Assembly: GCA_902561325.1 (NCBI GenBank)
Contig: CACEOL010000006.1
Location: 1 to 62,934, forward strand
Source of the DNA: an uncultured SAR86 cluster bacterium
Lineage (GTDB): Bacteria; Pseudomonadota; Gammaproteobacteria; Magnimaribacterales; AG-339-G14
Direction of reading: 5' to 3'
Length of the DNA: 62,934 bases
Shown here: positions 5,043-8,590 of the stretch, piece after piece
Numbering within the stretch: the stretch's first letter is position 1
Layout of the letters: the number at the start of each line of letters is the position of its first letter
Notes under the pieces: model-generated
What the model was told of the DNA's origin: nothing
What the model saw: the letters and a program-made list of their open reading frames with translations, nothing else
Database searches by the model: none
Position numbers and translations under genes: made by a program

Positions 5043-6434
5043 TTATTTTGAAAAGTTTGAAAATACTTCAATGGCTTTTTTTCTAGATTCTTTTAAATCA
5101 ACCAAATGAGTACTATACCCTATGTCATTTCTTTCATCAGATGTAGGATTATGAATATTTTTTACGGATGATAGTTCTGGAAGCCATTTTTTTATGAAAA
5201 CTCCTTTTTTATCGAATTTTTCAGATTGAGTAATAGGATTGAAAATCCTAAAATATGGTGCAGCATCTACTCCTGTTGATGCGCTCCACTGCCAACCGCC
5301 ATTATTAGAAGCAAAATCACCATCTATCAAATTTTGCATAAAATATTTCTCACCCTGTCGCCAATCAATAAGTAAATTTTTTGAAAGATACATCGCGACT
5401 ATCATTCTTAGTCTGTTGTGCATCCAGCCAGTTGAATTTAACTGTTTCATTGCAGCATCAATTATTGGAACTCCGGTCTCGCCATTTGACCAAGCAATAA
5501 AATAATCCTGATTATCTGACCAAGGAAAATCGTCATATTTTTCTGAAAAAGATAAATTTTTACTTACTCTTGGGTTATGAAAAAGAATGTATTTATAGAA
5601 TTCTCGCCAAATGATTTCATTAATCCAAATTTTGACTCCTTCATCTTCTTCTGAGGCTTTTTTGAAAACCTCAAAGAGACATTGCCTTGAAGATAAAACT
5701 CCTGAAGAAAGATAAGGTGAAAGCGAACTTGTCCCATCAATTGCAGGAAAATTTCTCTTCTCTTTGTACAAAAGTATTTTGTGATTAATAAATTCATCTA
5801 ATTTGTATAATGCGTATTCTTCTCCTATAGCATAAAGCTCTAAAATACTTTTTCTTTCAGCTTTTAAAGAAATATTTTCAACCTCATCACTTTCAAGAAT
5901 CTTGTTTTTTTGTTTTTTTGGGAAACCTAAGATTTCAATTTTTTTTGTGACAAGCTTGGATCTAAATACCTTCGAAAATGGAGTAAAAACTTTAAAAAAT
6001 GTATCACTTTGAGTTTTGATACTGTCAGGAAAGAAAACAGAAGAATCAAATATATTAAGTTTCTTATCCATATTTACTAATTCTTTTTCTAAATTTTGAT
6101 CTCTCTTTATTTCGTTGATTCCATATTCTTTATTTATAAATACTTCGTTAATGTTGTTAGTTTTTACGAACTCAATAATTTTTTTATATTCTTCATCTAT
6201 TCCATTTGCCTGTATTACTTTCAAAGATATATTCAATTCACCTAATTTTTTTTTGAGACTTTTTAAATGCTCAATTTGGAAGGCAATTTTTATATCGCTT
6301 TCATTATGATCTTGCCATTTTTTGGGATTGTGAATGAACATTGTTACCAAAGACTCACCACTTTCAGAAGCATGAAAGAGTGCTGGATTATCAGCTAACC
6401 TAAAATCAGTATTAAAAATAAATAAATTGGTCAT
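5043..6434 (-). CDS. phr: Deoxyribodipyrimidine photolyase (cryptochrome/photolyase family)
   Basis: A light-driven FAD enzyme that repairs cyclobutane pyrimidine dimers. The N-terminal alpha/beta domain begins with the typical FNTDFRLADNPAL, where DLR/DFR-D-N-P-A-L marks the antenna domain. The C-terminal FAD domain has WxNEIIWREFYK, GWMHNRLRM and the DGDFASNNGGWQW/ASTGVDAAPYFRIFNP region (about 371-402). The length of 463 aa fits class I bacterial photolyases. Upstream, TATACA at 6455-6460 (minus strand) could be a -10 box; no clear -35 is seen. A photolyase suits a sunlit surface-water organism. A cryptochrome-like role is less likely given the intact motifs. Confidence 0.92.
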   Translation of the reverse strand: MTNLFIFNTDFRLADNPALFHASESGESLVTMFIHNPKKWQDHNESDIKIAFQIEHLKSLKKKLGELNISLKVIQANGIDEEYKKIIEFVKTNNINEVFINKEYGINEIKRDQNLEKELVNMDKKLNIFDSSVFFPDSIKTQSDTFFKVFTPFSKVFRSKLVTKKIEILGFPKKQKNKILESDEVENISLKAERKSILELYAIGEEYALYKLDEFINHKILLYKEKRNFPAIDGTSSLSPYLSSGVLSSRQCLFEVFKKASEEDEGVKIWINEIIWREFYKYILFHNPRVSKNLSFSEKYDDFPWSDNQDYFIAWSNGETGVPIIDAAMKQLNSTGWMHNRLRMIVAMYLSKNLLIDWRQGEKYFMQNLIDGDFASNNGGWQWSASTGVDAAPYFRIFNPITQSEKFDKKGVFIKKWLPELSSVKNIHNPTSDERNDIGYSTHLVDLKESRKKAIEVFSNFSK

Positions 6435-6500
6435 ATTATGGTGACAAGACGATATGTATAGTTGCGCCCAACATAAAATTTAACACACATCATCTCGTCA

Positions 6501-6535
6501 AAAAAAGCGAGCCTTTTATGGGGAAAAGACTCGCT
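6501..6535 (-). terminator. Rho-independent terminator after the saccharopine dehydrogenase-like gene
   Basis: Read on the minus strand, AGCGAG (6535-6530) pairs with CTCGCT (6511-6506). Inside, CTTTT pairs with AAAAG across one C/A mismatch, around a 6-base loop (6523-6518). A run of T follows directly. This is a good intrinsic terminator for transcription coming from 7822-6644. It stands 66 bases before the photolyase start and directly abuts a second hairpin (6536-6585). Confidence 0.75.
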
Positions 6536-6585
6536 AAATTCAGATTTAGGAGAGTTTCTTTGGGAGAAAATGAAAATCTGAATTT
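6536..6585 (-). ncRNA. Candidate 3'-UTR-derived small RNA hairpin
   Basis: A perfect 12-bp inverted repeat, AAATTCAGATTT (6536-6547) and AAATCTGAATTT (6574-6585), encloses a 26-base loop. It lies directly beside the terminator at 6501-6535, 58 bases after the stop of the reductase gene. On the minus strand the loop contains TCTCC and CTCTCCT, both complementary to Shine-Dalgarno sequences. CTCTCCTAAA is an exact 10-base complement of TTTAGGAGAG in front of both upstream genes (starts 7822 and 8590). TTTTCATTTTCTC is an exact 13-base complement of the start region of the second gene. The structure is seen; a regulatory RNA is inferred. Confidence 0.4.
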
Positions 6586-6643
6586 AACTATGATATATAA
6601 ATAAAATTTATATTGGGTTATAAAATACTTAAATTTAGTTATA

Positions 6644-7822
6644 TCAAGAAAGCTCTTCGAAGGTGATTCCTGCTTTCATTAACCTACTTATGAGAGGGTT
6701 ACCCAATCCTACTGCAGAAGTTAATACTCCACCAAATTCACTTCCAAATGGTAAATCATCTGAAAAGGCTAAAGTTAAAGCAGATTCACAAACCATTTTT
6801 GAAGTTGATTTATAACCTGGATCTCCAGAACCATAAATTTCAAAACGTTTTTCGTTACCATCTTGGAGCTTTGCTACAAACAAACCCTTAAACCAGCCAT
6901 TATCTCTAGTTTCTTTATCTGGACCATCACCAGGTTTAGGGAGAAAAGGTCTAACAAGACGGCGTAAAGGAGTAGCAATAACTAAAAAAGCTGACATTAA
7001 AACAAAGGATGTTATTCTAGCTGCGGCCCTTGACGGATAACTTCCTAGCTCTTTAAAGGTAAAATCTTTGCCATAAGATTTTTGATTTAAATCAAACAAT
7101 GCTGCGCTTCTTCTGACTACTCTTGTATTGGCAAATGCCATTAATCCCATTCCTGAAAATGCATCAGTACCTGGAATTGGTTTAATGGAAAAACCATCTG
7201 TACTTTTATTTTTTTGTACGTCAGATACTGTGTCTTCAGGGTTCAATAAAAAAGGGTCTCTCATCTCCTTTGGTAAAGGTCCCATAGTAAACATTGTTTC
7301 TGTAGTTCCTCCGCTAGCTCCTCCCTTTGCTGAATGGTAAACCGTTACGTGTGAAACTGGTTTTTCTGATCTCGTCACTGAAAAGAAAACACCCATATCT
7401 GAAGGAATCGAATCATAACCGCAGGATGGAATGATTCTTGTTCCATCTAAAGCTGCCTTTTCATGAAATCTGTCAATCAAGCCTTTTACCCAGTGATTTT
7501 CTCCTGTGATATCTGTGTAATGAGTTTTATGTTCAACACAAGCTTCTACTACTTTAGTGCTATATCTTGCAAAAGGTCCTGCAGCTGAAAGTACAACTTT
7601 TGTTTGTTTTACAAAATTTTGAATTGCTTCATAGTCATCAGAATCAGCAATGAAAATGTCACAATCCAGATTTAATTCCTGTTTCAAGTCTTCTAACTTT
7701 TCTTTATTTCTTCCCGATATAGCCCAATTTAAATCTGGATAATTGGATTGAAAATATTCAGCACATAGTCTTCCTGTAAAACCTGTAGCACCATACAAAA
7801 TTATTTGATACTGCCTTTCCAT
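6644..7822 (-). CDS. Saccharopine dehydrogenase-family oxidoreductase
   Basis: An NAD(P)-binding protein of the saccharopine dehydrogenase/trans-acting enoyl reductase group. The Rossmann loop GATGFTGR lies at residues 11-18. The following AAGPFARYS and GENHWVKGLIDRFHEKA regions are typical of the family's membrane-associated, lipid-linked members rather than of lysine-biosynthetic enzymes. The segment SFVLMSAFLVIATPL may be membrane-associated. At 392 aa the length is normal. TTTAGGAGAG precedes the ATG by 6 bases. Transcription ends at the hairpin terminator 6501-6535. The substrate is unknown; a lipid enoyl or ketone is a guess from relatives. Confidence 0.78.
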   Translation of the reverse strand: MERQYQIILYGATGFTGRLCAEYFQSNYPDLNWAISGRNKEKLEDLKQELNLDCDIFIADSDDYEAIQNFVKQTKVVLSAAGPFARYSTKVVEACVEHKTHYTDITGENHWVKGLIDRFHEKAALDGTRIIPSCGYDSIPSDMGVFFSVTRSEKPVSHVTVYHSAKGGASGGTTETMFTMGPLPKEMRDPFLLNPEDTVSDVQKNKSTDGFSIKPIPGTDAFSGMGLMAFANTRVVRRSAALFDLNQKSYGKDFTFKELGSYPSRAAARITSFVLMSAFLVIATPLRRLVRPFLPKPGDGPDKETRDNGWFKGLFVAKLQDGNEKRFEIYGSGDPGYKSTSKMVCESALTLAFSDDLPFGSEFGGVLTSAVGLGNPLISRLMKAGITFEELS

Positions 7823-7879: not shown

Positions 7880-8590
7880 TTAATTGGCAGAGTAAGTTTG
7901 CTCACATTCTTCGAAATTATCAGACACTACTTCGTATCCAACAGCTTGAAGAGCTGCCCATTCAGATGCCCAAGGTGCTTTTCCATCAAAATAATCATCA
8001 AAGATTTTTCCATGTGACGCAGCATCAGGAGTAATTGCTCTTACCATTAAAGTTTTCGCTTCATGAGTTCCTCCTCCTAAGGGAGCGAAAATACCCACAA
8101 AGAAATCATTTCCTGCATCGATGACTGCTTCTTCAAAAGCTGTCATCGCAGCTATGAAATTTTGAAGTTTATTTCCTTGAACAATTACCCGCTGGACTCT
8201 CTCATACCCAGGATCTAACCTAAAAGGCTTTAAAGGCTTCCAAGTAACTCCATATTTAGCATCTCTAAGTCTAGCAAAGGAAGGAGGAGCCTGTTGAGGA
8301 TCATATTTTAAAGAGCCTTCTAAAGCAGCTTGCACACTTGTGAATGCACTCCAAACCATCATTTGGCCATCGTATTCATTACCCGATCTGGTTATGCAAA
8401 CCCCTGCATCTGTAGCACCGGTTGCCTTGAACGCTGCAGTATTCGACTTTAAAGTCTCTACATACCTATTTACATCTATTGTTGAAAGCATCAATGTAGT
8501 AAATGCTCCATCAGTAGTTCCGCCATTTTTTGCCTCTGCATTAATAACAAAAGAACTAGCTATCGAAAATATTAAAAATATCTTTTTCAT
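7880..8590 (-). CDS. Secreted protein of unknown function
   Basis: I do not recognise this 236-aa protein. It starts with a clear Sec signal peptide ([20 protein letters not shown], cleavage probably after residue 20), so it is exported. The mature part looks like two similar alpha/beta halves (about 30-115 and 130-225). Each has an ATxxAGVC- or GNDFFVGIF-type strand and an acidic helix, which suggests tandem dimeric alpha/beta-barrel (ABM/NIPSNAP-like) modules; that is an inference from pattern only. Two Cys (near residues 64 and 229) could form a disulfide. A strong AGGAGAG ribosome site precedes the ATG, the upstream gene is tRNA-Pro, and a terminator follows the stop. Confidence 0.75.

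Follow-up and report, generated by a model that had tools for sequence, protein, structure and literature searches.

A conserved two-hairpin element with two anti-Shine-Dalgarno words in one loop, a candidate small RNA gene of the SAR86 family

SAR86 bacteria are abundant in the surface ocean and difficult to culture, and among the papers listed by our literature searches combining SAR86 with small RNA or Hfq, none, judged by titles and the opening of abstracts, deals with SAR86 regulatory RNAs. We analyzed a stretch of 62,934 nucleotides from an uncultured SAR86 bacterium (contig CACEOL010000006.1; hereafter, the window), in which two abutting hairpins of 84-86 nt follow the stop codon of a saccharopine-dehydrogenase-like oxidoreductase gene (6644-7822) and precede a DNA photolyase gene (5043-6434), all on the minus strand. 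The element (6500-6585), which joins a hairpin displaying anti-Shine-Dalgarno (anti-SD) words to a terminator hairpin, is described here as a candidate gene for a small RNA (sRNA) of about 84 nt.

Structure, conservation and upstream region of the element

The arms of stem 1, AAATTCAGATTT (6585-6574) and AAATCTGAATTT (6547-6536), are perfectly paired on the minus strand and abut stem 2 (6535-6506), for which the terminator scan reports 12 pairs followed by a T run (6505-6500). Thus, the 12-bp perfect stem next to a terminator stem, as described in the initial annotation of this DNA, is confirmed by both the sequence and the scan, which found two terminator-like sites in the window, one per strand, vs 0.1 in shuffled sequences. 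The anti-SD words that had been claimed for the first loop are present as well, namely TTTTCTCCC at 6570-6562 and CTCTCC at 6554-6549, a pair with a single occurrence in the window and none in 100 shuffles. At the RNA level they correspond to motif 1, UUUUCUCCC (6562-6570), which is followed by AAAG in the genus of the window and is the complement of the TTTGGGAGAAA start regions described below, and motif 2, CUCUCCU (6548-6554). For the 154-nt spacer the folding energy is -31.5 kcal/mol (z = -5.2), and none of 200 shuffles folds as well. No Rfam family reaches its threshold for the element, and only two tRNAs do so in the search; the sub-threshold matches are to other families with E values of 0.27 or worse, Rfam not having been checked for an alpha-r15 model.

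For the comparative analysis we extracted 36 copies of the element (31 distinct alignment rows) from four genera that constitute the SAR86 family as used here: g1, the genus of the window and its genome G000 (15 copies), g2 (6), g3 (8), and g4 (7). The covariance model R1 built from these copies was run on 203 genomes of the order, including 40 of the family. It matches 36 of the 40 family genomes at E <= 5e-10 with one strong match each, hence we regard the element as a family-level RNA; the copy in the window scores 94.8 bits at 6500-6583. The four genomes without a match are also without a full orthologue of the upstream oxidoreductase gene, which is represented by a contig-edge fragment in G024, a paralogue-level match in G028, a weak match in G020 (E 7e-7), and no match in G007. 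Under the two-stem structure, 94.8% of 575 stem cells of the copy alignment are paired, compared with 25-48% in a slid-partner control; 15 of the 19 stem pairs are altered on both sides, and none of 500 shuffles matches the covariation score. The outer two pairs of stem 1 (6585 and 6584) are a variable spacer in relatives, the conserved part of the 5' arm being 6574-6583.

While the stem sequences diverge strongly among the four genera, the loop core UUUUCUCCC(C)..CUCUCC is constant. The complete loop reads UUUCUCCCAAA in g1 and UUUCUCCCC, or close to it, in the other genera. The CUCUCC word has a mean unpaired probability of 0.98 in g1 and 0.85-1.00 across genera, and motif 1 ranges from 0.63 to 1.00. 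The covariance analysis in related genomes that had been proposed as a check thus speaks for the predicted structure, with covarying stems and a retained loop core. By these predicted features, a conserved structure and an unpaired motif complementary to SD sequences, the element agrees with the class of anti-SD trans-acting sRNAs.

The region between the oxidoreductase stop codon and stem 1 contains a promoter-like block. TATAAC box 1 (6638-6643), directly after the stop codon, is found in 36/36 copies, and box 2 (TATAAC, 6617-6622) is retained as [TA]ATAAC in all of them; the two hexamers are exactly 21 bp apart in each copy, and the nearer one is located 38-41 nt before the stem. A third [TA]ATAAC hexamer occurs between the two in four g4 copies and further upstream in six g2 copies. 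The -10-like hexamer is TATCAT in the window (6590-6595), and all 15 g1 copies have this word or TATTAT at 6-7 nt upstream of the stem; a narrow script pattern places such a hexamer correctly in 20 of the 36 copies (15 from g1, 2 from g2, and 3 from g4), the remaining ones showing TAGAAT, TACAAT or TATTAT when read by eye. About six variable bases separate this hexamer from the stem. Together, the boxes and the -10-like hexamer look like an activator-dependent promoter, and since the block is present in every copy, we read the element as a stand-alone sRNA gene and not as a processed 3' end. At the other end, hairpin 2 is followed by T7 in 15/15 g1 copies and by a T run in five of the seven g4 copies; the run is short in g2 and absent in 8/8 g3 copies, therefore read-through toward photolyase is possible in g3.

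We also considered whether the TATAAC pair marks a regulon and rejected this: the other recurrent g1 site lies inside a coding frame, presumably that of alanyl-tRNA synthetase, and is about as frequent as the reversed control. Weak matches of the model were likewise set aside. Nine genomes of f3, another family of the order, give such matches (E 0.016-0.09); these nine and a second match in G002 lie, by eye, mostly in or across open frames, all ten are without the two boxes within the 90 nt upstream shown, and those from f3 look like chance. Among the weakly scoring regions of f3, L136:462-543 (G145) forms a hairpin whose loop is rich in pyrimidines; a strong terminator comes next, and the region could be an unrelated, independent sRNA.

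Complementarity of the loop to ribosome-binding sites

There are three copies of the word TTTAGGAGAG in the window (0.32 expected; 1 of 100 shuffles gives three), namely antisense to the loop itself, before the oxidoreductase gene starting at 7822, and before the gene starting at 8590 (7880-8590, minus strand; start region TTTAGGAGAGAAAATGAAAA), which encodes a secreted 236-aa protein with no Pfam family. Both the loop complement before these two genes and the exact 13-base complement to the loop at the 8590 start, GAGAAAATGAAAA, were therefore found as initially reported. To provide a background, start regions were collected with a simple gene-calling script from the window plus 397.5 kb of G000 (435 genes) and from 400 kb of each of G016 and G017 (399 genes each), two genomes of genera other than g1; this sample covers g1, g2 and g3. 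In G000, 31 start regions have perfect matches of at least 9 bases to the g1 loop (5.0 expected from coding windows), 11 of at least 10 bases (1.4 expected), four of at least 11, and two of 13. With 11 of 435 regions at 10 bases or more, complementarity is not shared equally by most ribosome sites, and the refuting outcome named in the initial annotation did not occur.

Both 13-base matches belong to one family, comprising the 8590 gene and its paralogue G000:C2:211278-211955; the odds of a two-member family holding both top places by chance are approximately 1e-5, an after-the-fact figure. By duplex energy these genes take places 2 and 7 among the 435, with the 7822 gene at place 27. The sequence GGAGAGAAA(A)ATG is found in 5/5 close orthologues of the 8590 gene, own copy included; g1 paralogues carry GGGAGAAA or AGGAGAAA, and six g3 loci have one paralogue each with TTAGGAGAGA. 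Among 22 g1 and g3 loci viewed, only three, that of the own genome, L004 and L006, have AGGAGAG in front of the 7822 gene. Hence, of the two targets originally suggested, the neighbouring 8590 family is a likely one on the strength of its start sequences, whereas the SD match of the own operon is not kept. Members of the 8590 family (homologues L212-L241) are secreted proteins of 230-240 aa without a Pfam or NCBIfam match, and they occur in up to three copies per SAR86 genome, adjacent to one another in g3.

Complementarity in g1 extends to genes of different kinds. The 16 g1 genomes contain 105 sites of the pattern TTTGGGAGAAA-N0-9-ATG, of which 15 are antisense to the sRNA gene and 90 remain (5.6 per genome, including three overlapping double counts); the 24 genomes of the other genera have 15 (0.6 each), and the reversed pattern gives 4 and 7, respectively. 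We read 36 such sites in 36 loci, many of which are orthologues and a few of which show one gene twice: 29 sites begin an open frame taken as a gene start, representing at least seven kinds of genes, and seven are without an open frame, two of them being the sRNA gene itself. The genes encode an SDR, an acyl-CoA dehydrogenase, a family III CoA-transferase, a MAPEG protein, several proteins of 137-147 aa, and a predicted lipoprotein of 195 aa, and the paralogue of the 8590 gene is among them. The 137-147-aa proteins (L302-L330, L422, L423), which have no Pfam match where scanned, are often encoded adjacently with SD-rich start regions and are apparently small membrane proteins. In the G000 stretches, AA follows GGGAG SDs in 7 of 16 cases and A/T-GGAG SDs in 7 of 60 (p 0.007), and five of the ten commonest GGAG-containing start-region 9-mers match the loop complement (overlapping words, 4-5 genes each). 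Thus, loop and SD words of several gene kinds appear to agree in a genus-specific manner in g1.

The other genera were examined with their own loops. The small-protein family gives duplex energies from -25.7 to -10.0 kcal/mol with the loop of its own genus in four genera, the sample means being -8.4 to -8.9. Raw counts of TTAGGAGAGA-N-ATG, where TTAGGAGAGA is the complement of the g2/g3 second word, are 19 in 7 g2 genomes, 28 in 9 g3, 28 in 16 g1, and 10 in 8 g4 genomes, with reversed controls of 1, 6, 2, and 11, respectively. When loop cores were swapped between genera, the own loop reached -16 kcal/mol or below at 12 start regions in G000 (7-8 for the foreign loops) and at 16 in G017 (9-10). 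Mean duplex energies compare with those of shuffled loops as -8.87 vs -7.73 in G000, -8.35 vs -8.21 in G016, and -8.74 vs -8.50 in G017. Overall, predicted complementarity to ribosome-binding sites above background is clear in g1 and weak in g2 and g3.

Proposed mechanism and alternative explanations

We propose, with a probability of about 60%, that the element encodes a trans-acting sRNA of the SAR86 family, transcribed from a gene of its own, which blocks the translation of a small set of mRNAs. From its structure and conservation, the promoter-like block, and the complementarity with its enrichment in g1, we infer the following course. In response to a signal, a transcription activator would switch on expression from the activator-type promoter formed by the two TATAAC boxes and the -10-like hexamer, and the RNA of about 84 nt would start at stem 1 (5' end near 6583-6585) and be terminated by hairpin 2 where the T run is present. 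Its single loop would display two different anti-SD words, UUUUCUCCC and CUCUCC, which would form duplexes with ribosome-binding sites of the GGGAGAAA and AGGAGAG types together with the start codon, and repress the mRNAs by blocking initiation. The predicted targets are enzymes of acyl-CoA and CoA esters, small membrane proteins, and secreted proteins.

Several observations weigh against this proposal. A scan found no sigma-70 consensus promoter before the stem, and the 3' end is doubtful in the g3 copies without a T run and in two g4 copies with a poor one. Motif 1 is just 0.63-0.67 unpaired in g1, g2 and g4. The TTTGGGAGAAA sites are inherited within g1 and not independent, and 20 of the 31 matches in G000 involve the start-codon (ATG) word, 11 being SD matches. 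The g1 loop has 18/399 matches of at least 9 bases in G016 and 14/399 in G017, where the own loops have 7 and 5, because the g1 loop covers the start codon too. None of the ten commonest GGAG 9-mers matches the own-loop complement in G016 or in G017, and the mean duplex energies in these genomes are near the shuffled-loop values. For GGGGAGAAA, an excess had been predicted in g2-g4 and was not clearly seen (28 in 16 g1 genomes, 16 in 7 g2, 13 in 9 g3, and 16 in 8 g4; reversed controls 10, 2, 15, and 4). Whether the own loop is preferred in the swap test varies with the threshold: in G016 the own loop has 12 regions at -16 kcal/mol vs 14 for the g3 loop, and in G000 it has 30 at -14 (31, 32 and 23 for the others) and 4 at -18 (2, 5 and 3), with the weakest mean energy of the test (-7.02). 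Finally, secreted genes as a target class, a candidate that we dropped, pair no better than other genes (p 0.12-0.96).

The neighbouring genes have features of their own. The oxidoreductase gene is read as broken (frame change, stops) in G003 alone (G003:C1:754855-756022), which is either an assembly error or a pseudogene, and eight g3 loci have, by eye, an apparent tRNA gene right before its start codon. The photolyase 5' leader forms a separate long hairpin (6443-6499, minus strand) with a conserved inner TTA..TTGGGC in three genera, which was not seen by eye in g4; 95.7% of its cells are paired and 7 of 15 pairs are changed on both sides, but 35 of 500 shuffles also reach seven. On this pattern it is a possible cis-regulatory RNA of photolyase. 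A short open reading frame overlapping the photolyase start within this hairpin was discarded, as its ATG frame is lost in L006, in L009 (2-nt deletion), and in g3, all by eye.

The inspected copies of the element sit directly before photolyase, and a cis-acting leader of its mRNA, such as an attenuator or structured 5' untranslated region (UTR), would use the same promoter for a transcript running through both hairpins and the leader hairpin into the gene. The missing T run in g3 and the covariation of the leader hairpin would be consistent with such a transcript; nevertheless, the strong g1 terminator, the T runs of most g4 copies, and the apparent absence (by eye) of the leader hairpin from g4 leaders argue against it, and it leaves the loop complementarity to distant genes unexplained. 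We consider it unlikely. Slightly less probable still is a loop that binds or titrates a protein through its two pyrimidine-rich UCUCC words, with the SD match as a by-product of pyrimidine content. In its favor, two such similar words within one loop are conserved in four genera, and the mean pairing energies in G016 and G017 lie near the shuffled-loop values; the g1-specific flank CCCAAA, matched by a g1-specific SD flank TTTGGG in several gene kinds, and the 13-nt matches at both 8590 paralogues speak against it.

The initial annotation had favored an RNA processed from the 3' end of the 6644-7822 mRNA, which would act as a repressor of its own operon and of the neighbour. The occurrence of TTTAGGAGAG before both genes in the own genome and the missing sigma-70 consensus agree with such an origin, which we nonetheless find very improbable: the promoter-like block separates the stop codon from the stem in all copies, the 7822 gene has no conserved SD match, and in G003 the RNA is intact at 94.1 bits although the upstream gene reads as pieces with stops.

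Returning to the stand-alone sRNA gene, we tentatively extend it to a regulon code, a proposal that is clearly less probable than the sRNA itself. One conserved Hfq-independent sRNA would be matched by SD sequences of unlike genes that evolved as tags and change along with the loop, which has CCCAAA in g1 and CCCC in the other genera. With equal reserve, the tagged genes may be those for acyl-CoA dehydrogenase, CoA-transferases, SDR and MAPEG proteins, and the small membrane and secreted families. Hfq (PF17209) was found in none of five SAR86 genomes, including the own one (completeness 86.7%, four relatives 90-97%); a control search of 14 well-known genomes detected it in five, including E. 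coli. If the code holds, a streamlined genome would co-control a dispersed regulon by one short RNA without Hfq, and an organism where no Hfq gene was found would have a conserved sRNA whose targets can be read from a code. The candidate sRNA would offer a handle, through metatranscriptomes, on the coordination of lipid and envelope genes in a streamlined genome and on loop-SD co-evolution.

Comparison with known anti-SD sRNAs

Anti-SD loops are also a feature of the CcsR RNAs. In Rhodobacter sphaeroides, CcsR1-4 are described as stress-induced modulators of carbon metabolism that are processed from the ccaF1 3' UTR (PMC8625941), whereas the SAR86 element is a single copy with a conserved promoter-like block. 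According to PMC8844928, AbcR1 and AbcR2 of the alpha-r15 group downregulate the translation of many transport and metabolism mRNAs through two 8-nt anti-SD words, aSD1 CUCCUCCC in the loop of the first (5') hairpin and aSD2 UUCCCCUC between hairpins, and AbcR1 transcription depends on the regulator LsrB. The SAR86 RNA likewise has two anti-SD words; however, its UUUUCUCCC and CUCUCC share a single loop, and the large Hfq network reported there for the AbcR host contrasts with the five SAR86 genomes without a detected Hfq gene. The kinship with alpha-r15 that had been suggested at first is not supported by motif sequence or layout. NfeR1 of the alpha-r14 group is reported to be Hfq-independent and to have three hairpins with identical CCUCCUCCC words (PMC10746234). 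As in the SAR86 RNA, the words described there lie in unpaired regions and are constant while the stems differ; unlike NfeR1, the SAR86 RNA has two hairpins, one of which bears two different words. Surveys of sRNAs in the ocean exist, as a review (PMC13414033) that cites Shi et al. 2009 indicates, therefore the SAR86 RNA may already have been seen in that survey, unnamed. By analogy with these systems, the SAR86 RNA would constitute a new family that works like AbcR, NfeR1 and CcsR but without their defining motifs.
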